Assembly: GCA_001603905.1 (NCBI GenBank) | Contig: LVAE01000057.1 | Span: 1 to 64,000, forward strand | Reading direction: 5' to 3' | Source of the DNA: Fibrobacterales bacterium Fibro_02 | Lineage (GTDB): Bacteria > Fibrobacterota > Fibrobacteria > Fibrobacterales > Fibrobacteraceae | DNA: 64,000 bases | Part shown: positions 5,858 to 55,300 of the stretch, piece after piece | Position numbering within the stretch: the first letter of the stretch is position 1 | How the letters are laid out: each line of letters starts with the position of its first letter | Notes under the pieces: generated by a model | Told to the model about the DNA's origin: nothing | Seen by the model: the letters and a program-made list of their open reading frames with translations, nothing else | The model's database searches: none | Translations under genes and position numbers: made by a program

Positions 5858-6778
5858 TTAGCCTTTCAATGCCTCAAATGCTTCGATCGTTTCGACCGGA
5901 GTGACCTTCACGTCGCGGCTGATCTTACGCATCAGGCCCATGAGCACCTTGCCGGAACCCACTTCGACACCCTGCGTCACGCCCAAGGACATGGCCTTGT
6001 TCATGCAATCATTCCAACGGACCGGAGATACCAGTTGCTTCACCAAAAGTTCGGCAAGTTCGGCACCCTTCGTGACCGGTTCGGCAATCACGTTAGCAAT
6101 CACGGGCTTTTCGACATCGTTGAACTTGGTCTTGGCAATCGCTTCGGCAAGGCCTGCCTGAGCGAACTGCATCAGCGGGCTGTGGAAGGCGCCAGACACG
6201 GCGAGCGGAATGGCCTTGATGCCTGCAGCAGCGCAGTTTTCGACGAGCTTGTTCACACCGGCGACGGCACCGGACACCACGATCTGGCCCGGGCAGTTGA
6301 TGTTTGCCGGAACCACGGTACCAGCATCCTTCACGGCTTCGCAAAGTTCAAGAATCTTGGCTTCGTCCTGGCCCATGATAGCAGCCATGGCACCCGGATT
6401 CTTGGAACCGGCGCTGGCCATGAGTTCGCCACGGGTACGCACCAGGCGGAGGCCGTCTTCGAAGCTGAAACCGCCGGCAGCGTAAATGGCGGAGTATTCA
6501 CCAAGGGAGTGGCCCGCCACATAGTCAAAAGCAAAACCTTCGGACTTGAGGAGTTCCATCACCATGGCAGACACAGTAAAGAGAGCCGGCTGGGTGTTGT
6601 CAGTGCTCTTCAGGACATCTTCGGGACCTTCGGCCATCAGCTTGGAGAGCGAGAAACCGAGAATCTCATCGGCCTGCTGCATGAGCTTCTTGGCCGGTTC
6701 AAAAGTAGAAGCGAGCGTCTGGCCCATGCCCACATACTGGGCACCCTGGCCCGGGAAAAGCAAAATCGTCTTAGACAT
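5858..6778 (-). CDS. fabD: Malonyl CoA-acyl carrier protein transacylase
   Basis: MSKTILLFPGQGAQYVGMG, GHSLGEY; start at 6778 preferred. Confidence 0.95.
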   Translation of the reverse strand: MSKTILLFPGQGAQYVGMGQTLASTFEPAKKLMQQADEILGFSLSKLMAEGPEDVLKSTDNTQPALFTVSAMVMELLKSEGFAFDYVAGHSLGEYSAIYAAGGFSFEDGLRLVRTRGELMASAGSKNPGAMAAIMGQDEAKILELCEAVKDAGTVVPANINCPGQIVVSGAVAGVNKLVENCAAAGIKAIPLAVSGAFHSPLMQFAQAGLAEAIAKTKFNDVEKPVIANVIAEPVTKGAELAELLVKQLVSPVRWNDCMNKAMSLGVTQGVEVGSGKVLMGLMRKISRDVKVTPVETIEAFEALKG

Positions 6779-7004
6779 TATATACATACCTCTGCGGATG
6801 ACCGCACTTTCAAAGTTTCGCCCACAATTTAGAAAATACAGAACCTGTAAAAAGCCACCCGAGGAGATCCTTAAGCAAAAATCAAAATGTAAGAATTTGG
6901 GGAGATTTTCGTAAAGTTCGGAAGAGAGGTGTGAAATATGCAAAAAAGATCCCTCCAGCGGAGAGATCTTCACAATTCATAGACTTTCTTTTGTAATTAG
7001 CCCC

Positions 7005-10000
7005 TTACCATCCAGCACACCAAATATTCGTTACCGTTCCAGTAACCGTCAAAACATCACCCACAACAGGTTTTGGGGAAAGAATGTTATTCGAACTATT
7101 CATCTCTCCCGAAACAGCTGTATTTGCATTCACCCCAATAGAGCATCCCGTATTGGTAAAATTATACTCACAATTAAAGCGAACATTTGAACAGGACGCA
7201 ATAGCAGTCACTTTATAACTGCCTGTAGTTAAGGGACCACCCGAGTTATTTTCAGTATTTGTCAAAGCCACCGTCGGCATACTTGCACTACTGCTCGCTT
7301 CAGCTTCACTACTCGAGCTTTCCTCACCAGTAGAATAAGTCACGCTAAACGTACAAGAATGACTTTCCCCACCAAGAGAAATGGTCAACGTATAATTTTC
7401 CGTATCACTGGCTCCCGCATCAGCGAAAGAAATAGAGCCTCCATCATACGTCGAACTTGTCTGCGCAGGCGAAATCGTATGACTTTCAGCAACAATCGAA
7501 TATGAGCATCCACTACTATTACACCCCGATACTGTATACGGAGTCACCGATATGGAATCACCAACCGACTTTCCTGATTGATTACTCATTGTCGAAGCAT
7601 TTCCAACGGAACAAGTTACAGACAGCAAGCTTTCAGACGAGCTAGACTCCTCGGCTTCACTTGAAGATGAAGAACTTTCGCTGCTGCTCGACTCCTCCGC
7701 CACAGATTCGCTACTGGTTTCGGTAGAATTAGAACTTGCAGCAACGACATCAAACGATTTCGTATCACAGGTGAACAACGCCGGATCAGCCTTACTAATC
7801 ACAGAATATGTATAGCCTGTACCCACAGCAGTTTGAGCAGAGCCCGATTTCGAAGCACTACATCTGGGGCCTGTTTCACAAGTTCCAGTAAATACGGTTT
7901 GACTGCCAAGCTTTATTTCATACTCACCACATCCTCCAGCAGGACAATGATCCAATACAAAAGTAAACGTGGGAGAATTAGCACCTAATTCTACGCTATT
8001 CTTTTCAATTGTTGTTGTACAAGACACATCATCTTCAGCTTCACCTCCGGAGCATTGTTTAGTATACCCAGTAGACGATCCTTCAGGAATTACCGTTAAC
8101 GACAGACTACAAGTATGTTTAGGCGGAATATCAGTACCATTGGCTACATCCGACAACGTGATAGAGCCGTCACTATTATTGCTATAACCATCTGTCATCG
8201 TTTTGCTCACCGTTTTGTCATCACTACCAGGGCCTGGATCAGTACAGGTTCCCGAAACAACAAAAGAGCCAACCAATTCAAGATTTGTAATCATAGCATC
8301 AACATTCAACGTTGCTGTTGGACCATGGCCACTTCTACTGACATTACAACTTTCAACCCCAACCGCCTGCGAACATACAGATGTAACGGACTTTATAACT
8401 ACCACTCCTGTATTCTTACTCTTAAAAGCAATCTGCACAACTTTTTCAGGGTCAAATCCGCCAGAACCACCCAACAGGCTTGACACATCAATCGTACCTA
8501 CCGTACCACTAAAGGAACTTGCCAAACTTGGGTAATTATCTTCACCATAGCCATCACTTTCACTAAAGAGCCAAACTTCCACTTCGCTATTATCAGGATT
8601 TTCAGCTTCAATTCTTAATGATGCTGATCTCAAATTCTCTTTAGTAAAAGTAGCAACCTGTTCATCACCTATATCACTTAGATACAATTCTCCAGAGAAC
8701 AAATCCGCATGATGAGTACATTCCGTATAATTACCAGTCCAGAATGTGCCACAATGAGCCCGATAAGACTCACCCGTTTCAGCATCTTCTGGATCTGCAG
8801 CCCACATGCCATCGGTTCCATCCAACGTACATTTCAAGCCAGCCTTAGCAGTTTTTTGTCCATCATAGCCATGTTGCCCAGCACCATCATTGCTAAAGTT
8901 ATAGCTGCCATTACAAGCAACCACCCCCGTAGAAGACCCGCCACAGGCATCTGTTCCATTATAGTAATAGAATTTCTTTTCACAATTGTATTTACGTGAG
9001 TCGAACCAACCAGAATGTCCAACCCAAGGTTCAACATCCTGTTGGGTGGGAATGACTCCATTTTCGGCTTTCGCTGCAAAAGAACACTTCACAATAGGAG
9101 GTGTTTCATGACACTCGGACGCATATTCTTCGCTAATCCAGCCAATACCGTATAATTTGAGATCAGAATTTTCCAAGCGATATCCCACATACACGTTATT
9201 AACGGTGTTATTGCTCGAAGTCAATTTTGAAAGGTCAAAACTCTTAGTATACACATTAGGTGTGCCATAATAATTACCTTCATAAGCGGACACAATCAAT
9301 TCATCAGTCTTTGTAATAATAGCAGAAATCATGACCATATTACTAGCAGATGTGTAAAGAGGAGAACTATTGCGAGTCAAAATATCCGACAAGCAGCTTC
9401 CGCCATTTTTACAAATTTGCGCAACCACCCTATTAGAATTATCCATATACACATTTAACATCAAATAACTTGACGCATCTGCATTTGAACGCAACAAGAA
9501 GCCCGTATTGCGAACTTTGTCAGAAGAACTTCCTAGCGAAGAAGACACACGTGGAAGTTGGACGAGAGCTTTCAGCGTTCCAGCACGGCCTGCATCTACC
9601 GTACTCATGACCGTTACGCTCTTATCCTTTTTCACATAAATTTTTCCACTATACGCATCAAGATGAATATCATTGATAGCTCCGCTAATCAAATGCCACT
9701 TTGCATTTGCATAGACACTTCCCGTAGCTTCAGCCGAGGCGCACACATTATTGTTTTCAGACAGGCAATCGTCTATGCAATACTTCTTTTCTTCCACAAC
9801 CAAGCTAGCACAATTAACCGAGCCATTTTTGAATTCATCAAAGAAACAATGTTTATCAGACTCTCCAAAATGAGCATAGACCGTCGTATTGTTATCTGTC
9901 ACATAGAAGCTTTCATATTTTGACGATGTAACTGCATAATCCGTCGGGCAACTACTTCCCGAGCACTTCCAATAGCTGAAGTTTCTATTGTCGCTCAAAG

Positions 10001-13000
10001 TTGTATCAATTGTCAAAGAAACAAGTTCTCCGCTAAACACAGTTATCGTACAGGATTTCGTTGTTGAAGCAGATCTATATCGACACGAAACAGGATCATG
10101 TCCCTCAACATTCACATACACGACGGGTTCTTTATCACTATCAATATTACCTGCAAAGGAAACCGTCAAATCCCTCTTACGAGCCTTGGCAGTAGCCTTA
10201 AGAGAAATCGCAGTACCAGGAGTCACATCAGCCAAAGTTCTACTTTCATTAGGAATAATAGTCACACACTTATTGGAAGTAGACTCCAAATTTACAGAAC
10301 TTCCACCACTCAATGAAATCGTCCAAGAGTCATTCTTATAGTTTTCAATATAACTAGTTCCATGCGGAACAACCCATGTTTCTGTCGAAATACAATTCGG
10401 CCAATCATTGATATTGTCCGGGCAATCATCCGAATGGGACTGACAATAAGCTTGAATATCTGCAGCCGTAGCATTCACGCGATTCAATGTTGCCGTAGAC
10501 GCAATATTAACAACAGTGTACGGGATATCGCCAACGTTATAGCCCTCACCTGCCATAACCTGGAATGCTAAAGTTCCATGTGTAGCACCCGAAGTCGAGA
10601 CGCTGAATATATTTATTACAGTATCTTTTTCTGGTTTAGCATCTATTGCAAACGAACAATTGGGAGCAGTTCCATTATTTGTCAACAGAGGGCTATATGT
10701 CCAATTTTCAACGGTTTCTTGAGGGCATGCAATATTTATATTTAAAGGCAGCTCATGCTTTGTAACTAAAACACCAATCATTTTGGTATCTATAGAGCCA
10801 ATCTGCTGATAATCAGCTGTGAACGAAACGGATGGCACAGACCGTTGGCTAGCACCAACAACCACCCAAAACGGAACTTCCTGATTATAGCCAGATACAT
10901 TTGCCTTTACTACACACTTATAATTACCTCTAGTCAGTTTAGCATCTCCTGCCGTATACAATTTCGCAGTCATCGACGTCGGCAAAACACCCGTTCCACC
11001 ATAAAGAGCGGAACATCTATCTATTTTCATATCTGATTTTTTCAGATGTGATCCATTCAAGGGAATAATATTGATATAATCCCCCAAAGAACCATAGGGA
11101 TCATCAGGCAACGAAACTACTCGCGGAAAAACGATAAACGACGAATCTACATCAGACTTGTCTGCGTTTTGCCTTACAGGAGGCAAAGTTTCGCTGCTTT
11201 TTGTTTGCGACTCCAGAGAAACCCCTAATTGCGGAGCCATCGAAATAAAGTAACGATCCTTAAAATTAACGACATCAACATCGCTTTCTGTACTGGACGA
11301 ACTTGAAGACGGCGTTGCCGAAGCAGTTCCGCAGGCAGCAGCAGTCACCGAAGCATCACAAAGAATCGACGCTTCAGACAAAGCTTTTATCAATCGAGAG
11401 TTTGTATCAAGATCTGCTTCCTGGAAAGACATATGAATACAGCTTGCAGCAGGAGAATAGATATTGCCTTTCAGGTGGATCTTACTCTGTTGAGGCATTT
11501 CTCCTTCTGTATAGATAAACATGTTATTAACTTCATTGTTATTCCCCATAACAAGGGCATCTGCAACACCTTGTTCCAAATACAAGAAAACATAATTATT
11601 ATCGGCATCACTATCGGCACTATATTTGGCCGTAGGCAAACCATTCTGAGCATGAATAGGAACAGTGGCTATAATAATGAAATTTCCATTTAAAGTTCCT
11701 GTAATTGACCCTGTACTTGAAGTTATCCTTACAACGACAAAACCATTGTAGAAATTCTGTTTTACATATTCTTCATCATTTTTATGATCGTTATAGCAAG
11801 CATTCAAGCTCTCCACTAAATTTTCATCCCAAGATGTAATTGATGCCGCGCACCCCTTTTGAGCATATCCTTGGAACTGATTTTTCGCAGTAACAATCGG
11901 ATCCGGGATGACAAACCTGGATCCGTCGCATCCGGTCGTTTCAGTCCATATTTTACTACACTTATCCAATGCAGAGTTTCCTCCCGCAATTTTTTCAGAC
12001 GGCAACGTACCGACAACATCACCTTCAGTCTGGAACCATGAAGCAAAATGGCATTGAGGTTGGGCATTCTGATGATCCGAGGAAAAAATCCCCTTAAACT
12101 CTCTATGCGGTGTACAATAGGGAGAACCTGTTATTGTTTTTATAAAATGATCCGCTTCCCACATATTTTGTTTTCCCCACAAACACGTAGCATTATAGCA
12201 ATCCCATTCATTAGAATTATCATAAAACGGAGTAGGCGTCTGATAATGATCGTCTATAAAGTAAGCATAAAACATATACTCATCACCAGAATGAGTTTTC
12301 CAATAATTATTTTCATATTCCCTAAAAGTTATAGTCGGCCCATCACTAGAATGCAGATAATATCGATCATCCTTTACCTGTTCCGAATAAATTTTAAATG
12401 TGCCATAATTTGCATCTTCAGGCCATTTATAGCCACAGGCATGAGCACTATTATTGCATCCTCTATTAGTCTCTCCAATTTGTCTTATTTTTTTCGATGC
12501 AGAAAAGGTCTTATAAGACGCATCTGAACGAGCCTTCGCACTGTAAACTTTTGACTCGCTACTTGTACCCAGAACAAGTTTATTGTATTTACTAGCATCG
12601 TGATTATCCCCTTCCGTTGTATACATTGACACATTCGCGCCCAACCAAACATCGTTGTATACACTGAAAGCATTATTTCCACCAAATCCCGTCAAGAGAC
12701 TATTTCCATCCATTACCAGGTTACCTTCAATTCGTCCATTATCGCAATCACCTACATTGAAGGTTCCATTCGCAACCGTCATATTTCCTAAGACCTTAAA
12801 GCCGCCCTTGTCCTCATTACTGCATTTTGACGAAACCATAAAATCACCATCAACATATACATTGCCAGCAACTTTTCCGTTAAACGGGTCAACATGCCCT
12901 CCCACATAAAGATCGTCACCACCCACAAAACCGTTATCGGCACCGAGATTTCCCCCAATGCAAGTCAACTGTCCCACTTCAATATAATCACCTGTCAAAA

Positions 13001-13646
13001 TAGCATTACCAGTCACAATCCAATCACCCTTAGTTTTAGGCGGGTTTGCATTCCAATTACCATTAATCGCAGCAGAAGCATACGTTGTCTGAGTACCTAC
13101 AACTTCACCACCGTAATAAGCATAGTTGAGATTTACGCTTTTAGACTCTGTAATATGCGGAACAGTAACCTGATACAAACCATCTACATTAAAAATGGCA
13201 GTTTCATTATGCCGTGTATTACCTCGAGCCTCTCCGGAAGACAATATTTTTACTTTATATGTGCTTTTTTCTGTATTAACACCAGTAATCCACACCTTGT
13301 AGGTTTGATCAGCCCTTTGGAACGGACGTAAACGTTCAGTAATATTGATAGGCTGATGAGTTTCATCTTCCACAAACTGTTTTATCACCGCACCTAAATC
13401 ATTGGCATGGAACGTCATCCACGCACGCGCATTTTCTATACCCGCCTGTGCCCCCTGCAGAGCTTCTCGTTGCAGCATTCTGCTTGCACTAGACTTACCC
13501 TCGCTCGTTATCCATTTCCAGGTTGCAGTTGCGGCAATGGTTGCAATCAACATAAACAAAAGCACGGCGATTAAAGAAACACCGGCTTTCATAGAACTCT
13601 TTGAGGAAAAACACCTCACCATTACTTTGTAGAAATTCGTACGCAT
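7005..13646 (-). CDS. Giant PilX/GspK-like minor pilin with very large multidomain ectodomain
   Basis: N-terminal KAGVSLIAVLLFMLIATIAATATWKW pilin-like helix; follows three prepilin genes; Ser-rich linkers (ESSSSESSSSSSEAEESSSSES), InlB-like and Cys-rich Ig-like domains. Start at 13646, just downstream of the preceding gene's stop, preferred. Confidence 0.75.
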   Translation of the reverse strand: MRTNFYKVMVRCFSSKSSMKAGVSLIAVLLFMLIATIAATATWKWITSEGKSSASRMLQREALQGAQAGIENARAWMTFHANDLGAVIKQFVEDETHQPINITERLRPFQRADQTYKVWITGVNTEKSTYKVKILSSGEARGNTRHNETAIFNVDGLYQVTVPHITESKSVNLNYAYYGGEVVGTQTTYASAAINGNWNANPPKTKGDWIVTGNAILTGDYIEVGQLTCIGGNLGADNGFVGGDDLYVGGHVDPFNGKVAGNVYVDGDFMVSSKCSNEDKGGFKVLGNMTVANGTFNVGDCDNGRIEGNLVMDGNSLLTGFGGNNAFSVYNDVWLGANVSMYTTEGDNHDASKYNKLVLGTSSESKVYSAKARSDASYKTFSASKKIRQIGETNRGCNNSAHACGYKWPEDANYGTFKIYSEQVKDDRYYLHSSDGPTITFREYENNYWKTHSGDEYMFYAYFIDDHYQTPTPFYDNSNEWDCYNATCLWGKQNMWEADHFIKTITGSPYCTPHREFKGIFSSDHQNAQPQCHFASWFQTEGDVVGTLPSEKIAGGNSALDKCSKIWTETTGCDGSRFVIPDPIVTAKNQFQGYAQKGCAASITSWDENLVESLNACYNDHKNDEEYVKQNFYNGFVVVRITSSTGSITGTLNGNFIIIATVPIHAQNGLPTAKYSADSDADNNYVFLYLEQGVADALVMGNNNEVNNMFIYTEGEMPQQSKIHLKGNIYSPAASCIHMSFQEADLDTNSRLIKALSEASILCDASVTAAACGTASATPSSSSSSTESDVDVVNFKDRYFISMAPQLGVSLESQTKSSETLPPVRQNADKSDVDSSFIVFPRVVSLPDDPYGSLGDYINIIPLNGSHLKKSDMKIDRCSALYGGTGVLPTSMTAKLYTAGDAKLTRGNYKCVVKANVSGYNQEVPFWVVVGASQRSVPSVSFTADYQQIGSIDTKMIGVLVTKHELPLNINIACPQETVENWTYSPLLTNNGTAPNCSFAIDAKPEKDTVINIFSVSTSGATHGTLAFQVMAGEGYNVGDIPYTVVNIASTATLNRVNATAADIQAYCQSHSDDCPDNINDWPNCISTETWVVPHGTSYIENYKNDSWTISLSGGSSVNLESTSNKCVTIIPNESRTLADVTPGTAISLKATAKARKRDLTVSFAGNIDSDKEPVVYVNVEGHDPVSCRYRSASTTKSCTITVFSGELVSLTIDTTLSDNRNFSYWKCSGSSCPTDYAVTSSKYESFYVTDNNTTVYAHFGESDKHCFFDEFKNGSVNCASLVVEEKKYCIDDCLSENNNVCASAEATGSVYANAKWHLISGAINDIHLDAYSGKIYVKKDKSVTVMSTVDAGRAGTLKALVQLPRVSSSLGSSSDKVRNTGFLLRSNADASSYLMLNVYMDNSNRVVAQICKNGGSCLSDILTRNSSPLYTSASNMVMISAIITKTDELIVSAYEGNYYGTPNVYTKSFDLSKLTSSNNTVNNVYVGYRLENSDLKLYGIGWISEEYASECHETPPIVKCSFAAKAENGVIPTQQDVEPWVGHSGWFDSRKYNCEKKFYYYNGTDACGGSSTGVVACNGSYNFSNDGAGQHGYDGQKTAKAGLKCTLDGTDGMWAADPEDAETGESYRAHCGTFWTGNYTECTHHADLFSGELYLSDIGDEQVATFTKENLRSASLRIEAENPDNSEVEVWLFSESDGYGEDNYPSLASSFSGTVGTIDVSSLLGGSGGFDPEKVVQIAFKSKNTGVVVIKSVTSVCSQAVGVESCNVSRSGHGPTATLNVDAMITNLELVGSFVVSGTCTDPGPGSDDKTVSKTMTDGYSNNSDGSITLSDVANGTDIPPKHTCSLSLTVIPEGSSTGYTKQCSGGEAEDDVSCTTTIEKNSVELGANSPTFTFVLDHCPAGGCGEYEIKLGSQTVFTGTCETGPRCSASKSGSAQTAVGTGYTYSVISKADPALFTCDTKSFDVVAASSNSTETSSESVAEESSSSESSSSSSEAEESSSSESLLSVTCSVGNASTMSNQSGKSVGDSISVTPYTVSGCNSSGCSYSIVAESHTISPAQTSSTYDGGSISFADAGASDTENYTLTISLGGESHSCTFSVTYSTGEESSSSEAEASSSASMPTVALTNTENNSGGPLTTGSYKVTAIASCSNVRFNCEYNFTNTGCSIGVNANTAVSGEMNSSNNILSPKPVVGDVLTVTGTVTNIWCAGW

Positions 13647-13659
13647 AGGAAACTCCGTG

Positions 13660-15081
13660 CTAATCTCTCGGACCGTTGCTAGGGGTTGCAACAACTAAAT
13701 CAACATTGCCTGTTTCGCCTTTTCCGCCATTCTTGGCACCCCGGCTAACCTGCAATTTCAATTTAAAAGCCTTTACATTTTTCTTTTCTTTTTTATTAGC
13801 ACCCAATTCAGGGTCAAACCCATTAAACTTATAATTCGCCGTAGCCACTTGATGGATTTTAACGTTCTTAATTATAACCTTACCTTGTGACACTAACGGA
13901 GAAAAACTTGCAAAGGTAAATGCCAAGCAAACATTATCAACAGCTTCAGGCACAGTAAAACGCATAGAGCGTTTTCCAGTACCACGCGAAGCATCCATTG
14001 GCGGGAAGAACATAAAATCTTCTATAACAATTTTTCCATCTTTCTTCGCATAATCCCCGGACCCAGCCTTTCTGAAGCCAACCGACATATGATCCATTCC
14101 AGGAACAAACATCAAGCTCTTGTCATATTCGCCCACATACCCCAAATCAAATGACACTTCATAAACCGTATCAGGATGCAAGGTCATTTTGCCATACGAA
14201 TCACAAAGTGTGCTCCAATTATCTTCGGCAGATCCAGATTCATTTTTTATAGCAAAAGCCTGATTTTTCTTTCTATATGTAGCCTCTAAAATTCCACCAA
14301 TGCCCTCATCATCACTATTTCTGTAGTTTGAATAAAAACCCGAAAGAATAATAGCAGTTCCTCCGACATTTTCAAAACCCGCTGTATTTACAGCGTTAAA
14401 GCCAGCATAGCCTTCATCACCTACACGAGGAACTAACCTAAAAGAATCCATATCATCCGGTGGAAACAATTGTGATTTTTCAACCTTCACACCAGGATTC
14501 GCAGCTTCGACATTAAACACTGTTACGCCAGAAGCCATTTGAACAGGTTGGCTCCCTTCCTTACAGGGGTCATCATCACTAATAGTCACCCCTTCAGCAA
14601 CATCCTTAATAGAGCAAGAACGCAACAGAGTCTTGTTTTTCGCATCCATATACCAACGGACTTCTTCAACGGCCAAAAAATAACCGTTATCATCATAACG
14701 AATTCGACGTAATGTCAAATCACTAAAGCCGTCATCATTCGTCAATAAAAAGGAGGAGGAATCTTTTTTGTCCGGGTCATAATCTTCAGGGTGCATGTAA
14801 ACATTCTCGTTTACGTCCTCAAATTTCACACCATACTCCGTGCCTAAGTCAGCCACACCTGTTTTTCTGGCACTCTTTGCACCCATTTGAGCAACATCTT
14901 CTCTAAACAACATTGCCACATTCTCGGCTTCTTGTGAAGCCTTGATCATGTTATCGGTACGGATACGGAACTTGGTGGAATTGCTGAAAGCCTCACCGGC
15001 AATAACAACAACAATGCCCACAATACCCATATAGACCATAAGTTCCATAAGGGTGAAGCCAGATTTTTTCAAGCTTTTCAT
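13660..15081 (-). CDS. Prepilin-type N-terminal cleavage/methylation protein (PilW-like)
   Basis: KKSGFTLMELMVYMGIVGIVVVIAGEAF type IV pilin signature; 4-bp overlap with upstream gene. Confidence 0.9.
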   Translation of the reverse strand: MKSLKKSGFTLMELMVYMGIVGIVVVIAGEAFSNSTKFRIRTDNMIKASQEAENVAMLFREDVAQMGAKSARKTGVADLGTEYGVKFEDVNENVYMHPEDYDPDKKDSSSFLLTNDDGFSDLTLRRIRYDDNGYFLAVEEVRWYMDAKNKTLLRSCSIKDVAEGVTISDDDPCKEGSQPVQMASGVTVFNVEAANPGVKVEKSQLFPPDDMDSFRLVPRVGDEGYAGFNAVNTAGFENVGGTAIILSGFYSNYRNSDDEGIGGILEATYRKKNQAFAIKNESGSAEDNWSTLCDSYGKMTLHPDTVYEVSFDLGYVGEYDKSLMFVPGMDHMSVGFRKAGSGDYAKKDGKIVIEDFMFFPPMDASRGTGKRSMRFTVPEAVDNVCLAFTFASFSPLVSQGKVIIKNVKIHQVATANYKFNGFDPELGANKKEKKNVKAFKLKLQVSRGAKNGGKGETGNVDLVVATPSNGPRD

Positions 15082-15602
15082 CTGATCACCCCCGATACGG
15101 TAATTGATTGCGTAGAACTTTTAAATCGCCAACTAACCTTGACGTCCAGTCGTTTTGCAAACACATGCTTGATGCTATCCTCACCTAAAAGAACTGATGA
15201 CGTCTTCGACATATAATCTGCATCGGGAGAAACAGTAATTTCTGCATTGTAGTAGACCGTCATAGTATTGGTGATAATCCCAGGTTGTCCCTCCCAAGTA
15301 CGCTTAATGGAATCTATCACAATCGGATTAAGGTTACCATCTTCATCCATTCCGATTTTTTCATCGGACAAACTTGCAAGTCCTAGCGAACCTAGAGAAT
15401 CTATCAAATTTTGAGCCACTTCAGTCGCTCCATCGCGACCACGGATACGCAACAGTGCATCACGGTTTCCAGTCTGCAAATTAAGGACCGCCATATAGAG
15501 GAATCCTAATACAGCAGCAGCAATCAGAACTTCAACTATGCCAAAACCACGCTTTAAGCGCGCCTTTTGACATTCAATCACTTTGTCACACACCGTCACC
15601 AT
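15078..15602 (-). CDS. Prepilin-type protein (PilV-like)
   Basis: KRGFGIVEVLIAAAVLGFLYMAVLNLQ class III-like prepilin N-terminus. Confidence 0.85.
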   Translation of the reverse strand: MVTVCDKVIECQKARLKRGFGIVEVLIAAAVLGFLYMAVLNLQTGNRDALLRIRGRDGATEVAQNLIDSLGSLGLASLSDEKIGMDEDGNLNPIVIDSIKRTWEGQPGIITNTMTVYYNAEITVSPDADYMSKTSSVLLGEDSIKHVFAKRLDVKVSWRFKSSTQSITVSGVIR

Positions 15603-15610
15603 AACACCAC

Positions 15611-16198
15611 CTACAATTCAGTCCAGTTGTTCCAATTATTGTTTGACGTACGATCATTGCCAACCTTCCACATCGGAACAACCCTATTTTTATTTTTATC
15701 TTTGCGAACAGCACCGTAAACATCGCGACCCCCATACTGAATGCAAATTCCACCCTCTGGAGGTGTCGCAGCAAGGCCAATACGAGGTTTAAAGGGAACT
15801 TTCGCTTCATTTCCAATCCAATCACGCATCGTCGTAGGGCAGCCACTACTAGCTTCACTATTAGCAATAAATTTCGCCGGAGCGTCAATAGTAAATTCGT
15901 CTATAATACCTTCGTTGGGCGACTCACAATCCCTCGTTCCTTTATCACGAACCACAAAAAGACGTTGAGGATCCCCAGAAGCAATCCTCAAGCACAGCAC
16001 TTCATTGCGCTGGCTAGACAAATTCGCTACACGTTCGACAAAGGCTGCAGTGTTCACTGCGGCATCCTTGACTCGGGCATTCGCGACGGCCTGTTGCAAA
16101 CCAGCCACGCCCATAGCAGACAAAATTCCCAAAATGGAAACAACCACCAGGACTTCGACCAGGGTATAGCCCGCTTTCAAACGCTTAGCAAATAACAT
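15611..16198 (-). CDS. Prepilin-type protein (FimT/GspH-like)
   Basis: LKAGYTLVEVLVVVSILGILSAMGVAGLQQAVANARVKDA. Confidence 0.9.
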   Translation of the reverse strand: MLFAKRLKAGYTLVEVLVVVSILGILSAMGVAGLQQAVANARVKDAAVNTAAFVERVANLSSQRNEVLCLRIASGDPQRLFVVRDKGTRDCESPNEGIIDEFTIDAPAKFIANSEASSGCPTTMRDWIGNEAKVPFKPRIGLAATPPEGGICIQYGGRDVYGAVRKDKNKNRVVPMWKVGNDRTSNNNWNNWTEL

Positions 16199-16570
16199 AA
16201 TTCAATCCTTAAACAACTTCGCCACAAAGATAGTTCAAAGACGCAGGCGACATTCAAAAACGCGTTTCAACAACACGCAAAATTGGATATCGCCAACATC
16301 CCGAACTTAAAATAACTTTTTTTTTACAAAACGGCTCAAAAAATTTCAAAAAACAGCTTTTTCTTGCGAAAATGGGCGAAAAACGACAATTTGGGGCCAC
16401 AAAAACGAATTATGTAATATTTTTGTAATATGTTTTCGGTTTACGACTTCCTGACAATGCCGCTGGGACATTTTTTCATCAAAATCCATTTATAAAAATG
16501 GGTCTATAATGAAAATAACTATATTTGCGCTCGCTTGGCGCATGTTGCGCCGCATTAAACGGAGGCTAAA

Positions 16571-18025
16571 ATGGCTCTACAGTTCTACAACACCGCATCG
16601 CGCAAGAAAGAAGTTTTCACTCTCCCCGAAGGCGTCCCCGCCGTGCGCATGTACTGTTGCGGCCCGACGGTGTACCATTTCGCCCATATCGGCAACCTCC
16701 GCACCTACATTTTCGAAGACTTTTTGGTCCGCACGCTGAAGTACTACGGCTACAAGGTGAACCACATCGTGAACATCACCGACGTAGGCCACTTGACCAG
16801 TGACGCAGACTCTGGCGACGACAAGATGGAAAAGGGCGCCGCCCGCGAAGGCAAGTCTGTCTGGGACATTGCGAAGTTCTACACCGACGCGTTCATGGCC
16901 GACTGGCATCGTTTGAACATCCAGGAACCGACACGCTGGACTCCTGCCACGCAGCACATCCAGGAACAGATCGACTTGGTGAAGACCTTGGAAGAAAAGG
17001 GTTACACCTACCGCACCAGCGACGGTATCTACTTCGATAGCCTCAAGTTCCCGCGCTATGCCGACTTTGCGCGCCTCGACGTGGAAAATCTCCGCAAGGG
17101 TAGCCGCATCGACATGGGCGAAAAGCACAACGCCACCGACTTCGCTTTGTGGAAGTTCAGCCCGAAGGACAAGAAGCGCGCCATGGAATGGGACAGCCCG
17201 TGGGGCGTTGGATTCCCCGGCTGGCACATTGAATGCTCCGCTATGGCCATGAAGTACAATGGCCCGACGCTCGACATTCACTGCGGCGGTACCGACCACA
17301 TCCGCGTGCACCACACCAACGAAATTGCCCAGAGCGAATGTGCTAACGGCGTACAGTTCGCCCGTTTCTGGATGCACGGTGAATTTCTGCGCACCGCAAG
17401 TGAAGAAAAGCTTGAAGACGGCACGACCGAAACCAAGTTCGGCAAGATGAGTAAGTCCAGCGGCGAATTCCTGACGGTCACGCTTTTGATGGACCGCGGT
17501 TTCAACCCGCTCGACTACCGCTTCTTCGCCATCGGCAGCCACTACCGCAACTACCTGAACTTCACGTGGGAAGCCTTGGAAGGCGCCAAGGAAGGCCTCA
17601 AGAGCTTGCACAAGAAGACGGACCCGCTGATCGGTAAGGCTACTGCTATCACTAGCGAAGCTGCCAAGGCATTCCAGAACGAGTTCAAGGAAGCTATCGG
17701 TGACGACCTGAACATGCCGCGTGCTCTGGGCATCATGAACACGATGCTCAAGAGCGATATCGATGACGGCGAAAAGGCAGCGCTGGTTGCCGATTTCGAC
17801 CAGATTTTCGGTTTGAAGCTCGATGAACCTCGTGAAGAATACGCCAAGAAGGGTGCGAACGACGGTGTGGATGTCGCAAAGATTGAAGCGCTGATTGCCG
17901 CCCGTAAGGAAGCCCGTGCAGCCAAGAACTGGGCCGAAAGTGACCGCATCCGCGACGAACTCGCCGCGATGAATGTTGTCATCAAGGACAGCAAGGAAGG
18001 CACGACCTGGGAAATCAAGGGTTAG
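16571..18025 (+). CDS. cysS: Cysteinyl-tRNA synthetase
   Basis: YCCGPTVYHFAHIGNLRTYIFEDFL; KMSKSSGEF class I KMSKS. Confidence 0.97.
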   Translation: MALQFYNTASRKKEVFTLPEGVPAVRMYCCGPTVYHFAHIGNLRTYIFEDFLVRTLKYYGYKVNHIVNITDVGHLTSDADSGDDKMEKGAAREGKSVWDIAKFYTDAFMADWHRLNIQEPTRWTPATQHIQEQIDLVKTLEEKGYTYRTSDGIYFDSLKFPRYADFARLDVENLRKGSRIDMGEKHNATDFALWKFSPKDKKRAMEWDSPWGVGFPGWHIECSAMAMKYNGPTLDIHCGGTDHIRVHHTNEIAQSECANGVQFARFWMHGEFLRTASEEKLEDGTTETKFGKMSKSSGEFLTVTLLMDRGFNPLDYRFFAIGSHYRNYLNFTWEALEGAKEGLKSLHKKTDPLIGKATAITSEAAKAFQNEFKEAIGDDLNMPRALGIMNTMLKSDIDDGEKAALVADFDQIFGLKLDEPREEYAKKGANDGVDVAKIEALIAARKEARAAKNWAESDRIRDELAAMNVVIKDSKEGTTWEIKG

Positions 18026-46357: not shown

Positions 46358-49300
46358 TTACCGCACCACGATTTTAGCAGCCTGCTGCTGTGAGCCTGCG
46401 CGGACGCGGAGCATGTAGAGGCCGGACTTCGGAGCGTCCAGCACCAATGCGTTCGTGCCCTCGAGGGTCTTCGCATTCACGGTCGACATCACGTGTCCCT
46501 TCATATCCAGCAAGTCGACGCGCGCATTGGTGCCCGCAAGGCCCGTCGCCTCAAAGGACACCTTCAACTTTCCGCCGAGCCTTGCGGAGCGCAGGCCCTT
46601 GAGAGAGTTCTGTGCAACGACCTTCGCGGCAGGAGCCACACGAACCGTAGCAGTCTTCGCATTCGACTTCAGGAGCACCTGGAGCGGAACACCGTCCTTC
46701 ATTTCGGTCGTGTTGCCGTCCACCGTCACGAACACGCGGTAGCCGAAGGCATTCACATCATCAATACCGACAAGCGTCAGGTAACCCACACGGTCGTTAG
46801 ATGCAGACAGGGCCACGGTCCATTCCATTTCGTCGCTTGCGGACTTGATGGACTTGGCGAGAGCGCGCTTGCCTTCCACGATCGAGAGGTTCACATGGTC
46901 GCCCATACTTTCAGGAGGTTCTTCGGCGCTGAACGGGTTGTTGCCCGCACCCAGAATGTTCCAGGCATCCTGCTTGCCGTTCTTGTCAGAGAGCACGGCC
47001 TGCAAGACCCAGCGATCCTTGGTAGAAGCCTTCGCGAGCACGCGCTTCAGCAACATGCGACCACCTTCAGGCTTTTCCGGCTGAGGTTCACGTTCCGTTG
47101 CCTTGGCAAACACCGGTGCGGCAGACACCTTCCAGTTCTTCTTCTTGCCCACCTTGGCCCAAACGGCTTCGTAAGGCTTCAGGTACTTGGTTTCTTCGTA
47201 ATCAGCCGTTTCCGAATTATAACGGTAGAAGCTGATTTCCGATTCCTCGTCCACATCCTTTTCTTCATCCGCATGGCCGGCAAACAGGCTGACTTCCCAA
47301 CCATGAGTATTTGCCACCAGGTTCCAGCCGCTGTGAACGCTATCGAGTTTCCAGACAGCATCCTCGCCGTCATCTTCGATATCGCGCTTCAGCACCAGCG
47401 GGAGGCTATCCAGCGAGCTGTACCAGGCACCACGGGTAGCAACCACCGAGTCACCGCGGTTATACCGCTTGTACTGCCAGTAGTCACCGCCGTTGCCAAA
47501 TTCATCCCACCAGTAGAAGACCTGGTCGTCGGACGTCCAGTTGACCGCCGAGGTATCCACGGCTGCAAGGGAAACCATCTGCCAGCCATCCTTACCCACC
47601 GAGGCAATGGAGGACTTGACACCAAATTCCTGCTCGAACGCATCCGATTCCTTCTCGTCTTCGAGAGTGAGGACCACCTTGTAATCACCCGTGCGCTTCA
47701 TGCGGAGAACCACTTCGGATTCGAAGCCCATCGCCACGGAATCACCCAGCAAGGAATCGAGCACCACCGAGTCGCCCTTCACATCGAAGACACGTACTCT
47801 AGCTTCCACGCCGCGGGTCACTTCGAACTCGCTCGCCTTGATGTTCAGCTGGATAGCGTTTCCACTCTGGGCAAAATGCCTTTCAACAATTTCGACCGGA
47901 GTCTTGTTCGCCTTGCTGAAGTGGGCCTTAAAGACAGCATTATCCATATTGCCCGGCAGGTTACCGCCTTCACGCAGCACCGCCAGCAACTTGTCGTTGC
48001 GGACAATGGTAAGCGAATCCAGAGCGTAGCTCGAATCCGGAGCAGAACGCAGCGTCCATTCGGCACTCACGATGTCGGACGGAAGCATCATCGAGCCCTT
48101 TTCGTTGAACTTGTGGACAACTTCGGTGGATTCGCCAGTCTTTTCGACAAGCATCACCTCACCCTTGTCCTGTTCCACGGACACGCGGGTCATCAGAGCA
48201 GAGCACTGATCCGGAGAGTCGCTCCAGAGAGCATACATATTGATCTTTGTCGTATCCGTGAGCTTCGGATACTTTTCATACAGCTTGTTCGCCAGTTCGT
48301 CCTGCATCTCCGTATAGGCGACGGCATCGTTCTTCAAGGTCCAACCGACAAGGCAACGACTTGCGCTGTAGACCATCGTCGGGAACTGGGAAGCACTGGT
48401 GCCCTTGGCGATAACCTTCTTTCCAGAGGTCCAGTCGTCACCATAGAACAGCGTTTCCTTCGATTCCGCGTTGAACGCCAGGTTGAAGCCAACCACCTTG
48501 ACGAGAGCATCGAAGCTGGTCGCTTCAGAGACGAGCACGAATTCGTCATTCTTTGTAGTATCGGCAGCAGCCGCATTCCAGACGAGCGACTTTCCGCTAT
48601 TCAGCAAGTGGGATTCGTTCGCTTCGAAGTGGGCACGGAATTCCAAGCCGCCTTCAACATAAGGCACCTTGAGACCCTTTTCACCCACCACGAAGGTGAA
48701 TGTAGAATCGTCCACAAGCTGCTGCAATGTCAACGTTCCCTGTCTCAAGCTATTGGACTTGACCGATACGGTTTTGACATTAGCCTTTTCCCACACGGCG
48801 TAGAGGACCGGGCCCCTAGACATCTGAGCGAAATCCATACCGTACATTTCCTGAATCTTGGACAGGTCGAAATCACCTTCGGAAATATCACCGATAAGAC
48901 CTTCACCGTAGTGTTCCATATAGGATTCAACAGCTTCGTTGAAGGCATCATCGATTTCCTTGAACGCCTTGTCAGGAGTTGCATTCTTGTCGAGGCTCCA
49001 ACCCACGAGCTTGGCATCGGTACGGTAGATTCCGGTCGGGAGATTCTGTCCGTAAGAAGAGGCCCACCACTTGAATCCAAAGTCGCTTTCGTAGAACACA
49101 TCTGCATTGCCCGCATTCACGTCAAGCGCAAATTCCATAGTAGGCATATAACTTATAGCCCTGAGCATCACATCCTTACGGAACGTATACTCATCGCCCA
49201 TCTCAATGACCGCGATCTGCGTACCCGTCGTAGAAATCACACTGATTCCTTCATACTCGGCCGTTTCGGAAGCCGAAACGAACGACACGGTGAACACTAG

Positions 49301-52300
49301 ATCATTTTCAGCAGGGATCACGAGCATCGTTGTCGCATCCACCAGGAATTCATTCGAAAGGCCACCCGAAGCATTCGTCAAGCGGAACTTGCCTTCGGAA
49401 GCCTTATTACCAACGGTCACCGTGTAAATTTCCCTATTCGGAGCAGATTTCCACACGGCGTACAGCGTATCCGGCGTATCGAAGTTTTCACGAGTTTCAG
49501 CATGATTCTTGAAGGCCTCATAGAAGTCATCATCAATCTTAGTGAAGTACTTGCTACCTTCGGCAACGCCACTCATCTGCGTGAAGGACCAGCCCACGAA
49601 TACGGCGTCGTTACGATAGATTCCAGACGGAAGATTGTCGTTATAGAAATCTCCGTTCATGAGGTTTTCGAACCATTTCGGATCGTAGCTTGTGCCGTAG
49701 AACACAGTTGCGTCATCCGCATTCAGAGCGAACACGAGACCCTTGCTCTTGGGTTCCACATTGGCCTTCAGGACCGTATTCATGTCGAAGCTGTACTCGG
49801 CTCCGTTTGCAAAGCCAGAATAGCTGTTCAGATCATCGTCGAGAAGATCAATTTTTTCCAGCTCATAGGCATGTCCTTCGTGGAACGTAACCTTGAAATC
49901 AACGACGTGAGTCGGAACCGCCATCAGCGAACCAGCAGACAATTCGTAGCTGTTGACAGCATCGCTAATCGTGAACGAACCTTCAGCTTCCGTATTGCCG
50001 CTACGCAAGACTACATAGCCATGGTTGCAGTCCTCGGTAGTCCATACGGCATAAAGTGTCGTCGGCTTTACTTCAAGAGCCTTGTAGGCCTTGATGAATT
50101 CAGTGCCAACTTCCTGGAACGCTTCAGATTCCGTAGCAGTCTTCGAGAAGGCGAAACCAGCCAGGCACTTGCTCGTCTGATAAGCTGTCGGGAAATGATA
50201 GTCGAATTCTTCGTCGGCAAGGTCATACGACTTTGTTGCAGACCATTCCAAGTTGTAGAACACGGTATCGTTTGCAGCCTTGTTCGCATCGAAGGCGAAG
50301 GTGAGGTCCAACACAGAGGCTACAGCCTTCAATTCAGAATTCTGACTGAAGGAAACCGTGGCACCGTCGGCAACCGTCGCAACGGTTTCGTCACCGGCGA
50401 GTACGCTCACTTTGTTTTCATAGTCAACGGTAACATTCTCGGCAAAGGTCACAGAGAATGTCAGGTCTTCTGCAGCCGGAATAACCAAGGCTTCTGAACC
50501 CACTTCAAACTCGTTGGCGATTTCGCCATACTTGTTTGTCAAGGTGAATACGCCTTCGGATGCATCCTTCGCAGCCACCGTGTAGTTTGCGTAAGTTTCC
50601 GGGCAATTCTTCCATACGGCCACGAGAGTTACCGGAGAAGTCAATTCGCGTTCCTTGAATTCCGTGATGAATTCATCGCTGATGGACTTGTAAACCACAG
50701 ACTCATCGGCATTGAAGGCGAAGCCGTCGAGACACTTGTCGGTGCGGTAGAGCGAAGTCGGGAAGTTCAGATCTTCTTCGGCATCGGCAGGGCTATAGGT
50801 CTTGCCGCTGAACCAGTTGTCACCGTAGAACAGCGTAGCACCATCGGCATTGGCATCGAAGGCAAGCACATAGACATCGTTTTCGGTAGCAACCGTAATT
50901 TCGGTATTGCCCGCCAATACGAAATCTTGTCCAACGAATACATTCGTAACTTCACCATCTACGTCAAGGGCGACAGGCAAATCTCCCACTACAGAATGAG
51001 TATTGAGAGGTTCAAAGTAAGCCCTGAAGATCAAGTTGTTTTCGGCAGGGACCTTGAGTCCGTCAGCACCGACGGCGTATCCGATGGAATCTGCGAACGC
51101 CCACTGGGCAACAACTAGGTTACCGGCACCGAGAGTTTCTTCGGTAGACGTAATCGTGTAGGTTGCGCGTTCGGCATTAGTCTTCCACACGGCATAGAGC
51201 GTCGTGGGAGCCGTTTCCTGGGCTACATAGGCGTCCATGAAGTCCTTGTCGAACTTGGTGAACCAGACTTCAGCAGCATCATCTTCGATAGCCTCAAAGG
51301 CCCAGCCCAAGAGATTTGCATCGGTACGGTAGATGTTCTTCGGAAGTTCAGCACCGTACGCAGCACCCTCCGAGGTCCAGGTCTTTGCATATTCCTTACC
51401 GTAGAACACGCTAGCTTCGCCGGCATTGGCATTCAAATCGAACGCGACAGCCTTCAGAGTCGGAGTTGCCTTAAGAGTAGCATTCTTCGCAAAGCTATAG
51501 GTCTTCGCATTGACCAGGGTGTAGTCGTATCCGTCAACCAACGAGATCGTAATTGTTCCTGTTTCTGCATCAAAGTCATAAGCGCTAGTCGGGGTGAACG
51601 TGACCGTAAATTCAAGGTCATCGGCAACCGGGACTTGAACAGCAGCAGATTCTTCGCTAGCGGGCAGCTTAATTTCCATGTCCGCATTTGTCAAGGTAAA
51701 CTCACCTTCTTCAGATGCATTCAAAGCGCTGATCATTACATTGCTGGTAATGGCAGAGCAATGCACGCCAGGCTTCAGCCATACGGCATACAGAGTCGTA
51801 GGCTTTTCTTCGAGAGCCTTGTAATCTGCAATGAACGCAGAATCGATTCCCGTATAGAACTTGACATCCGGCATCGTGATAGTGTAGCCGTCTTCCAGCG
51901 GTTCCATCGCAGTGAAGGCAAAGCCACCCAGGCAGTTCTGCGTCTGGTATGCGGAAGTCGGGAACTTAGAATCAAGCTCTTCTTCGCTCATATCGTAAGA
52001 CTTCGTGGCAAACCAGTCCTTTCCGTAGAAGACCTGGTCGTCTTCACCCACATTGATATCGAAGGCGAATTCGTAAGAGTCCACCTTGGTCGCCACGTTA
52101 ACCATTACGGTTCCTGCCGCACCAAGGGTTTCTGTATGAACAACCACTTCGTCACCAGTTGCATACGAACCAACCGTTTCATCCGTGATGAAGCTCTTCA
52201 GGGTAATCGGGGTTTCACCATCAAAGCTATGGGCCGTATCGATAGCGAAGTTCACGGTCAGCGCAAGGTCTTCGACCATGGGGACATCGAGCATACCATC

Positions 52301-55300
52301 TTCAAAGACATGCACAATGGTCGAATCGCCAATCGTCTGGCTGAGCGTCAGTACACCAGCGTTCTGGTCCAGAGTTTCCTCTGTCAGCTGAAGACTATAA
52401 GCAGGAATCACCCCAGAAACAGTCCAGACGGCATGGAGCGTATCCGGATAATTTCCTTCATGAGCTGCGGCATAGGCATTATAGGCCGCGACAAAGTCTT
52501 CGTTAAGATTCAGCATCGGAGTTTCTTCGTTGTCAAACTTCCAGCCTGCAAACTTATATCCTGCGCGGTAGAGATTTGACGGCAGTGCTGCACCAAAGGA
52601 AACACCTTCCGAGCTCCAATTCCAGCTGAAACCCGGACCGTAGAACACATCGTCGTAACCGGCATCAAGGGCGAAGTTCATCTCAATCAGATTAGCTTCG
52701 ACATTGAGCTTTACGTCAGGCTGTTCAGCGGCAACGGTAAAGGATTCTCCATTTTCAATTTCAAAGAGTTGTTCGGCATTTTCGGCATCAGCTTTGACAC
52801 CTGTAATGACATCACCTGTTTCATAAGTATCAGCCCCCGTGAACTTAACCGCAAGGGACAATCCTTCAAGTTCAGGAATAACCAGGCCTTCTTCAGGGAC
52901 ATCCATCCAAACAGCATTTTCTGCATCAGGATTCTGTGATACCTGGAATGTTCCCTGACCTTCTGTCATACCCGAGAAGACCTTGAATGTTTCCGGTGTA
53001 CAATTGCTATTCCACTGGGCAGACAGCGTATAGTAAGTATGATCCACGGATTCACCTTCGTCATTCTGAACCGTTTCAACGGTAGCCATGACATCCTTCA
53101 AGGCATCAACAACCTCATCAAAGTTGCTATAAATTTCCGGTTCCTCTATTCCAGGAATAACCCAGCCTTCAAAGCAGGCGTCCGTACGGCGTAAATCCTG
53201 CGGGAAAGCCTTATCTTCATCGCCGGAGTCCAACGTCAAAGTTTTTTCCTTGACCCAGTCCGTGCCATAGAACACAGGGGCATCACCTGCATTGACATCA
53301 AACACAATCAGGTAACTCATCATTTCGACATCTGTCGTGAATGTATAAGTCGGCGTACTCGGAATACCGACAGAAGTCAGGTGCCATACGCCACCCTTTT
53401 CGGCATCCGGCTCAACCTCCACCGTTTCAATGTCAGGATTAGAACCTTCCGTTACCGGCAGCGTATACTGGTAGCTGAGTTCGTATTTAGCATCTGCAGC
53501 ATAGTGATAGCCAGACTTCGGAGCGCTTCTGACAGGATCAATGTAGACATCGAAAGAATCACCTTCAAGAGTCAATCCGCGACGATCTAAAACTTCGTGG
53601 AACAAGGTGTCGTCACCGAACAGCTGGTACAGCACGAGTGTCGCGTTCATCTGGCCATTTTCCACAGTCCACAGATTACGATTTTCGGAACAGTCATCAC
53701 CCCAGATGGCATACAATGTCGTGGGGTTGTCCGGGTTCGTGCTAAATTCCGTGAAGTTGCCCGCATTAAAGGTCGTGTAGGCACTATCGTCAGCAGTATA
53801 ATTTGCGGCAGCCGTCGTAGACCATCCCTGGAAACAGGTGCTCGCACGGTACGGTTTCCAGAAGACAACCGTATCGGCGTTGTTTGCCAGTTCAAGCTTT
53901 TCCGACTTCGTCGCATTCGTCGGCAAATAAGTATCCGCGGAATCGGTTACACCAAGAGACAAATCGTAGGTCACATAAATCGGGGCAAGAGACTTGAACT
54001 TGACGGTCCACGGCAAGGATTCCATCACGTTCACTTCAGCACTATCTTCCACCGTGACCGTCATCACGTTGCCGTTCTTGGCCGTTTCGTAGGAAATCTT
54101 GTCCAACGTGTAGTTTTCAGCAGGTACGGCCACAACCCTGAACTTGACGCCAATCTGTTCAATCAGGAAATCCGGTCCCACTTCATTGTACGCGGCAGGT
54201 ACATTCAGGGTCAGAACGCCAGTTGCTTCATCTTCAACAAAAGAATGCGCAAGCACAACCTGGGCAGGATCTTCCGGAGATTCAGGAGCATCCCCAATCA
54301 CCTGTTCCAGAAGAATCGTTCCTTCACCTTCAACCGTCAAGGTCTGCTTATAGGTTTCTGCATTATCGCAGTTTCTATTTGATTCATCGGTATCCGGAAC
54401 GAGCACGTTAATCGCCGTCTCCAACGTTTCGGTTGAAGTCATATAGACGAGTTCGCCAACAATACCGGTATCGATATGCGCTTCGGAGTCTTTAACTTTC
54501 CAGTAGACTTGGCAGCCATTTTCATCGTAAAGAATCGGGGTCTTGATATTGTTCACGGTCACATCGGTTTGAGACTCAAACCAGTCAACTTCATATTTAT
54601 TGTCAGAGACCCACTTGCTCGCCACAAACACTTCAGCATCTGTAGGCCTAGAGAATTCAACATTGTAATGCAATACGGTAAACGAAACATAAGCTTCGTT
54701 GGCCCAGCTACTCATTCTACTCGGTTGAACTTTCAAAGTCATGACTTCGGGATCCAAATTGTAACCCCAATCTTCACCTTCAGGAAGATCAGCAGAGCCA
54801 CCGTCATCATCAGACCAGCCAAAGGCCGTATGTTCAGGATGACCCTCAATATAATCTTTCAACGTCATCGCATAACCCGGATCCGGTTCCAGCGACACAT
54901 TGTACACCAAGGTATCATCGGCTTTGGGGATAAACAATCTATGTAGATATGTATGTGCATCCGCGGCAGTGAACTGCGATTTCTGCTTATAAGTCTTTCC
55001 ATTCCATGTTTGCGAAATGACGACACTTCCGTGATAAGATTTAGGGTCACTATCATTATCGGATCTAAACCAAATAGGCCAAGCATCTCTAGCATCATAT
55101 CCGTTAGTCAATTCCGAAACAACCATCGGATAAGCCGCCATAGCAGTTTCAGTAGAATTCTCTCCAAAATATTGCGTGACGAGATCCGAATTAAACGGTT
55201 GCTTCATTGAGGAACTAATATAGGTGCCGTACCAAGCATTCCATTCCGTTTCATCTTCAGGAGCCTGTTCCTTAGCCCAGTACACTTCGTTAAAAGAGTA

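Follow-up and report, generated by a model that had tools for sequence, protein, structure and literature searches.

A giant gene closes a minor-pilin operon

The window, a stretch of 64,000 nucleotides from a member of the Fibrobacterales, carries on its minus strand an open reading frame that runs from an ATG at 13646 to a stop at 7005 and encodes 2213 amino acids with zero internal stops. A GGAG stretch lies just 5' of the ATG; starting instead at M19, a later Met in the same frame, would shorten the leader to MKAG. Once the leader is removed, the mature protein would have a mass of about 235 kDa. The original prediction placed this gene at the end of a FimT/PilV/PilW/PilX-type order, and the reading frame and the profile matches of the three preceding genes confirm it. 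The features of the operon and of the giant protein are as follows.

15611..16198, minus strand: FimT/GspH-like minor pilin, 195 aa (N_methyl E 4.6e-7; GspH E 5.7e-7)
15078..15602, minus strand: PilV/GspI-like minor pilin, 174 aa (TIGR02523 E 0.0023; gspI E 0.0024)
13660..15081, minus strand: PilW/GspJ-like minor pilin, 473 aa (N_methyl E 4e-6)
7005..13646, minus strand: giant K/PilX-type minor pilin, 2213 aa (reading frame, PilX_N, relatives, AlphaFold)
13581..13646, minus strand: leader to Gly22 (-1), from the sequence and compared with the leaders of relatives
13368..13580, minus strand: pilin alpha1 and next helix, residues 23-93, no Glu at +5; PilX_N at residues 21-71 (Pfam; AlphaFold helices 25-49, 54-79 and 81-93)
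13164..13304, minus strand: probable pilin head of antiparallel strands, residues 115-161 (AlphaFold, pLDDT mostly 86-94)
12642..13118, minus strand: beta-helix-like region of short, evenly spaced strands, residues 177-335 (AlphaFold; the fold name is inferred)
11268..11318, minus strand: Ser-rich linker, residues 777-793, predicted disordered (pLDDT < 50 at 777-791)
10479..11264, minus strand: Ig-like beta-sandwich region, residues 795-1056 (all-beta model; tentative assignment)
8322..9863, minus strand: best-conserved distal ectodomain, residues 1262-1775 (alignment and model)
7008..7733, minus strand: variable C-terminal tail, residues 1972-2213, with beta domains and two Ser-rich linkers (pLDDT, alignment)

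The N terminus has the class III prepilin features typical of K/PilX-type minor pilins: the leader is short and basic and has Gly at -1, and the 21-residue hydrophobic stretch behind it lacks Glu5. The hydrophobic helix is KAGVSLIAVLLFMLIATIAA, in which Gly22 is the -1 residue and +5 is Ala, so that the pilin-like helix without Glu5 described from the sequence alone proved correct. Pfam PilX_N (PF14341) matched the protein with an E value of 4e-5; the score of 23.9 bits fell slightly short of the cut-off of 25.5, and in the genome search it reached 29.9 bits, above the cut-off. The only other match in Pfam and NCBIfam was a nonsignificant one to GspK (NF037980; 10.6 bits where the cut-off is 130). 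The helix ends in an A-x-A motif (AATATWK), where signal peptidase I might cut, which counts against the tip-pilin reading developed below.

The giant is conserved across the genus and pairs with PilW

Of 25 genomes of the genus, 24 carry relatives of 1500 to 2970 aa; the sister genera have them as well, and there is a single occurrence at the level of the order. The 56 distinct homologues, of 1500 to 2964 aa, keep the frame, the N terminus and the position behind pilW, which rules out a frame artefact or a chance frame; a fusion created during assembly is likewise ruled out by the same length class occurring in many assemblies. The grafting of a domain held in common with the cellulases of the genome was rejected as well, since its own genome holds no second match to the giant at E <= 0.001.

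Gly at -1 is present in all 55 aligned relatives, behind leaders of mostly 4 to 13 residues with two or three Lys/Arg, while the +5 residue is Thr (37), Ala (12), Val (5) or Met (1) and never Glu. PilX_N was matched in 14 of 20 relatives. The N-terminal helix region has the top mean identity of the whole protein (51 to 54%), residues 51-100 being the most conserved, and both occupancy and identity are low past residue 2110. Other families of the phylum have the same quartet with a PilX of 680 to 790 aa.

The order of the quartet is kept across the genus and sister genera, and a pilW gene directly precedes every complete giant copy; pilW and the giant duplicate as pairs. Across 63 such pairs, with spacings of -70 to +50 nt, the pilW and giant distances correlate (r = 0.79). 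Swapping partners in any of the eight two-pair loci worsens the fit, and only 7 of 2,000 shuffles reach the observed fit. It seems likely that PilW is the cognate partner of the giant, although the covariation could come from linkage alone.

The ectodomain is predicted to be a chain of beta domains

AlphaFold predicts a long N-terminal helix and a beta head followed by a chain of beta domains (mean pLDDT 84 and 80), with pLDDT below 50 at residues 1-24 and 46-52 and low values again at about 1972-2006; the Foldseek matches listed include no pilin. For the beta-helix-like region next to the head, sequence searches gave only weak matches to beta-helix folds. Foldseek of the proximal half returned nothing at E <= 0.001, its Ig-type matches being weak, while the distal half matched alpha-2-macroglobulin, complement and other Ig-like strings. 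Over the query, the TM-scores of these matches did not exceed 0.14, and we read them only as a chain of beta-sandwiches.

Within the distal half, residues 1262-1775 form Cys-rich beta modules with invariant Cys, Trp and Gly, followed by a possible jelly-roll (1655-1775). For this region no Pfam or PDB family was significant and no solved structure was matched; profile searches with the distal modules yielded no credible match in the PDB, the CBM30-type entries 1wmx and 2c24 appearing only at an E value of about 0.8. Module-by-module Pfam scans gave scattered weak matches, such as CBM65 at E 0.015 in 1 of 51 members, which we did not use as evidence. Pfam and the module scans placed no known adhesion, carbohydrate-binding or cellulose-binding domain in the giant at threshold, and NCBIfam gave no match to the fibro-slime domain (TIGR02148).

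Among relatives, F5/8-type carbohydrate-binding-like domains occur in the PilX of the two phylum relatives scanned for domains (E 5.6e-18 and 1.5e-34). A weak PA14 match was seen in the PilX of two phylum relatives only, and a weak CBM5/12 match, scoring under the Pfam cut-off, in the order-level relative.

The Ser-rich linkers noted in the original prediction are real in this protein (residues 780-793, 1983-2011 and 2108-2122) but do not define the family, many homologues lacking any run of four serines. Elsewhere in the genome, the frame L081:19231-19998 has a Ser-rich linker of like type.

The giant probably caps a type IV pilus tip complex

The genome encodes PilM, PilN, PilO, the secretin PilQ, PilT, PilC and one prepilin peptidase (PilD). 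A separate secretin operon carries pseudopilin-like genes and its own GspK-like protein of ordinary size (346 aa), and each genome has two secretins against a single platform protein. The quartet, the PilX_N match, the pilus machinery and the second operon with its own GspK-like protein together make the tip of a type IV pilus the likeliest location. The assignment to the PilX/GspK type with a likely tip position is well supported, by PilX_N, by Gly at -1 with no Glu5 in 55 of 55 relatives, by the quartet, by the predicted helix and head, and by the machinery.

H-I-J-K complexes are located at the tip and capped by a subunit without Glu5 (PMC10191384), and minor pilins of modular build that carry a lectin or vWA module are adhesins (PMC9934059, PMC8179133). 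We consider it probable that the giant is the K/PilX subunit of such a four-protein tip complex of the type IV pilus and that its beta chain binds a surface. For the processing, tip position, PilQ passage, adhesion and any polysaccharide ligand we infer the following course. As the K of FimT-PilV-PilW-PilX (H-I-J-K), the protein would carry about 2,000 residues of extracellular beta domains fused to its pilin part. The single prepilin peptidase would remove the leader, and alpha1 would then dock on the other minor pilins. Because the protein lacks Glu5, it would be unable to neutralize the N terminus of any subunit above it and would thus cap the complex. PilC and the ATPases would assemble the filament starting at its tip and so drive the beta chain through PilQ to the outside. 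There the chain may bind a surface, probably plant polysaccharide, and PilT retraction would draw the attached cell to the substrate. Cellulose as the ligand is a guess.

Adhesion, which the original prediction had proposed, is the likeliest role. The long beta ectodomain supports it indirectly, as do the carbohydrate-binding-like domains that phylum relatives have in their PilX, and the modular pilins of Streptococcus sanguinis offer a precedent. Most likely the giant is a very long sticky head on a pilus tip that helps these plant-fiber degraders hold on to a surface. The F. succinogenes cell-envelope proteome, in which only two pilin proteins were reported (PMC6851124), counts against the tip-pilin reading.

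Other explanations are less probable. The tip pilin might bind a target other than plant polysaccharide, such as DNA for uptake or other cells, and the beta-helix-like region beside the pilin head does recall the module with which ComZ binds DNA, a beta-solenoid (cited in PMC8179133), with no plant-polysaccharide module identifiable in the giant; but its size, the expansion of its paralogues and its variable distal end speak for surface recognition rather than for a conserved DNA receptor, and the F5/8-type domains sit in the PilX of the same quartet in phylum relatives, so we regard this as unlikely.

We think it rather improbable that the giant sits at the tip of a type II secretion pseudopilus, with an ectodomain that works in the periplasm by heading a piston, receiving cargo or plugging the secretin. 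Type II secretion systems and type IV pili have K subunits of the same kind (PMC10191384), and two secretins with one platform protein mean that the systems might share parts. However, a chain of about 2,000 residues with a fast-changing distal end fits an outside role better than a piston, the GspK score lies far below its cut-off, and the second secretin operon is furnished with its own GspK-like protein and pseudopilin-like genes. It is because of this ordinary-size protein that, of the pilus or pseudopilus left open originally, we favor the pilus.

Least of all do we expect a conventional surface or secreted adhesin, whose helix would be a plain Sec signal or an anchor in the membrane, with the pilin genes as mere neighbors: the A-x-A close to where the hydrophobic stretch ends and the same type of Ser-rich linker at L081:19231-19998 would suit it, but conservation peaks downstream of any signal-peptidase cut, at residues 51-100, PilX_N matches residues 21-71, the quartet order is preserved beyond the genus, and PilW and the giant duplicate as pairs.

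Comparison with known pilins and adhesins

The giant resembles PilX of Pseudomonas and Myxococcus, PilK and GspK in its prepilin N terminus without Glu5, in PilX_N and in coming last after FimT-PilV-PilW. Those proteins have a few hundred residues, whereas the giant has 2213 (1500 to 2970 in its family) and an all-beta multidomain ectodomain, and in its family pilW-pilX pairs multiply within genomes. Like PilB and PilC of S. sanguinis (PMC8179133, PMC9934059), it joins a pilin part to extra modules and is expected at the tip, but they are of about 50 kDa, have Glu5 (stated for PilC) and carry recognized vWA or lectin modules. Within the modular-pilin class (Raynaud et al. 2021), extra beta modules are clear in the giant, and named carbohydrate-binding-like modules are found only in relatives. 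The giant is an extreme, newly seen variant of the modular minor pilin, itself a known kind.

The survey of modular pilins used the N_methyl signature IPR012902, and the most extreme multidomain case it named has 860 residues (PMC8179133, PMC9934059). Such a survey would not collect most K-type pilins, which suggests that K-type modular pilins are missed by N_methyl-based surveys; the giant would add the K position to those known for modular pilins, at several times the size of that extreme.

Fibrobacter is a major rumen cellulose degrader without cellulosomes, and how it holds on to fiber is an old question. Fibro-slime and other cellulose-adhesion proteins of Fibrobacter are large proteins of the surface for which, as here for the giant, a role in fixing the cell to the fiber is proposed, but the NCBIfam fibro-slime match is absent from the giant. 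Pili have been implicated in the way Fibrobacter attaches to cellulose (PMC3079729, PMC4668043, PMC4704652), and this literature names no pilus-tip adhesin. In F. succinogenes S85, an orthologue of the giant would first be sought at Fisuc_0251-0253, a cluster of three pilin genes (PMC3079729). The giant offers a defined, genus-wide adhesin candidate with a likely cognate partner in PilW and conserved, expressible modules.

The giant can also be likened to PilY1/PilC, the tip adhesin of type IVa pili, a large modular effector proposed to sit atop the PilX subunit. PilY1 does not belong to the pilins and contains a C-terminal beta-propeller, whose family, PF05567, has no match in the giant; a search of 138 phylum genomes found no match either, but the control genomes gave none, which leaves this negative uncontrolled. 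We tentatively entertain, without expecting it, that a single giant chain replaces the PilX and PilY1 pair, the K subunit itself being the tip adhesin, and that PilW-giant cassettes have been duplicated and diversified as alternative heads on one pilus machine for different plant polymers. Several minor-pilin clusters per genome have been described in Myxococcus (PMC13190605).

Gene order and N-terminus of the giant pilin

The giant pilin gene, whose ATG has a GGAG near its 5' side, is the last of a same-strand quartet, in which the first three genes were assigned by profile matches:

16198-15611, minus strand, FimT/GspH-like pilin gene
15602-15078, minus strand, PilV/GspI-like pilin gene
15081-13660, minus strand, PilW-like pilin gene
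13646 (ATG) to 7005 (stop), minus strand, giant pilin gene, open frame of 2213 aa

The window comes from contig C42 of a draft genome of 3.2 Mb (89% complete). Translations judged by eye place fabD-, fabG-, acpP-, and rnc-like frames downstream of the giant and a cysS-like frame upstream of the quartet on the opposite strand. The cysS neighborhood (window region 5858-18025) recurs in one other genome (L054), whereas in sister genera (L087 to L090) the quartet adjoins a dnaA-like frame, also judged by eye; because these neighbors differ, the quartet has moved in evolution.

PilX_N matches residues 21 to 71 of the giant, slightly below the Pfam cut-off in a single-protein scan and above it in the genome search, and was also matched in 14 of 20 relatives. 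In an alignment of 56 relatives, position -1 is Gly in all 55 that have it, -3 is Lys or Arg in 53, and Glu is absent from +5, where Thr, Ala, Val, or Met is found; the leaders, counted from the nearest Met, mostly comprise 4 to 13 residues, 2 to 3 of them basic. By sequence, this is the pattern of a K-type minor pilin. The alternative that the hydrophobic stretch is a discarded signal peptide would be odd, because mean identity peaks (54%) just past it, at residues 51 to 100. The giant is very probably a K-type minor pilin.

Distribution and shorter relatives

Relatives found by name were nearly all Fibrobacter assemblies. A homologue of the giant occurs in 24 of the 25 genus genomes searched, with two or three distinct frames in ten; one genome of the same order carries a 1500-aa relative, and none turned up in the remaining 15, more distant genomes searched alongside. 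Among 138 phylum genomes, PilX_N frames measured 1567 to 2973 aa inside the window's own taxonomic family, except two (167 and 277 aa) that apparently hit the start of a contig; in other families they reached no more than 98 to 803 aa. The quartet is intact in sister genera (L087 to L091), and other families have the same quartet (complete at L093 and L094, partly recognizable at L092 and L095) with a final PilX of about 680 to 790 aa. Three relatives carry candidate binding modules:

L092:1745-3958, minus strand, PilX-type pilin of another family with F5/8 type C domain and weak PA14
L093:4007-6214, plus strand, PilX-type pilin of another family with F5/8 type C domain and weak PA14
L080:5275-9774, minus strand, order-level 1500-aa relative with a CBM5/12-like stretch

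The two F5/8 type C matches have E values of 5.6e-18 and 1.5e-34, and the CBM5/12-like stretch (about residues 821 to 844, E 3.6e-4) is weak and below the Pfam cut-off. Because of these modules, fusion of binding domains to the PilX position seems to be a long-standing trait in this phylum, and the giant form looks limited, within the genomes searched, to this order and mostly to this family.

Pairing with PilW

A PilW gene lies directly upstream of every complete giant, with gaps of -70 to +50 nt (63 pairs), and extra pilW-giant pairs in several genomes (L051, L053, L068, L070, L072, and L073) have no detectable FimT or PilV of their own. PilW distances correlate with those of the giants' N-terminal 150 residues (0.79); swapping partners lowered the correlation in 8/8 two-pair loci, and 7 of 2000 within-locus shuffles reached the observed value. 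A cognate PilW-giant interaction would explain this co-variation in sequence, and duplication of pilW-giant as one linked unit would explain it too.

Ectodomain

AlphaFold was run on two overlapping parts with 56 and 55 homologues, giving mean pLDDT of 84.2 (residues 1 to 1150) and 79.7 (1060 to 2213). The model has helices at 25-49, 54-79, and 81-93, then strands at 115-161 that are likely the pilin head, short regular strands at 177-335 that look like a beta-helix, and mostly beta structure from there to the C-terminus. Two Ser-rich linkers (about 777-791 and 1972-2006) are among the stretches predicted to be disordered. None of the ectodomain could be assigned to a known domain. Foldseek returned nothing at E <= 0.001 for the proximal half. 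The distal half, which has several invariant Cys, Trp, and Gly residues, matched other chains of Ig-like domains but did not superpose meaningfully on them as a whole.

Pilus machinery and proposed function

The same genome has PilM, PilN, PilO, and a secretin clustered at L081, PilT and the platform protein PilC at L083, and one prepilin peptidase. Published inventories list these pilus genes in all phylum members examined (PMC4704652); the S85 genome paper judged the pilus gene set incomplete (PMC3079729). PilY1 had no match in the 138 phylum genomes, but control genomes gave none either, so this negative does not establish its absence. The rival location is the pseudopilus of a type II secretion system; the genome also has a second secretin operon:

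L082:7103-11471, minus strand, second secretin operon with a 346-aa K-like (GspK-like) protein and at least 2 pseudopilin-like frames

The 346-aa protein matches no Pfam family and is K-like on our reading of its N-terminus. No platform protein belonging to this operon was found; its system may use the type IV pilus PilC, and a single platform protein common to both is conceivable. Because the operon owns K-like and pseudopilin-like genes, the pilus is favored for the giant quartet, and we consider it quite likely that the giant belongs there.

In the established model, the H-I-J-K minor pilins both initiate assembly and occupy the tip, the subunit without Glu5 forming the cap (PMC10191384), and Myxococcus models place PilX beneath PilY1 (PMC13190605). 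By analogy, the giant would cap the pilus tip, a position we regard as likely, and its long beta chain would emerge from the cell via PilQ. In Streptococcus sanguinis, minor pilins carry additional modules that can act as adhesins (PMC8179133, PMC9934059). An adhesive function is reasonably probable for the giant; a plant polysaccharide is a tentative ligand. A role in plant-fiber attachment would agree with the lifestyle and with previous studies of pili in the genus (PMC4668043, PMC6851124).

Modular tip pilins are already known as a kind. In the literature searched, which many subscription-journal papers lie outside, neither a modular pilin at the K position nor one of 1500 to 2970 aa, neither such genus-wide conservation nor multiplication of PilW-giant cassettes was described, and priority for position, size, conservation, and cassettes is not firm.

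Elsewhere in the window, a 4832-aa open frame (46358-60856, minus strand) begins with MKTKINNLSVFILTALFAVSVAWSA, an ordinary Sec-like signal, and is probably another very large surface or secreted protein.
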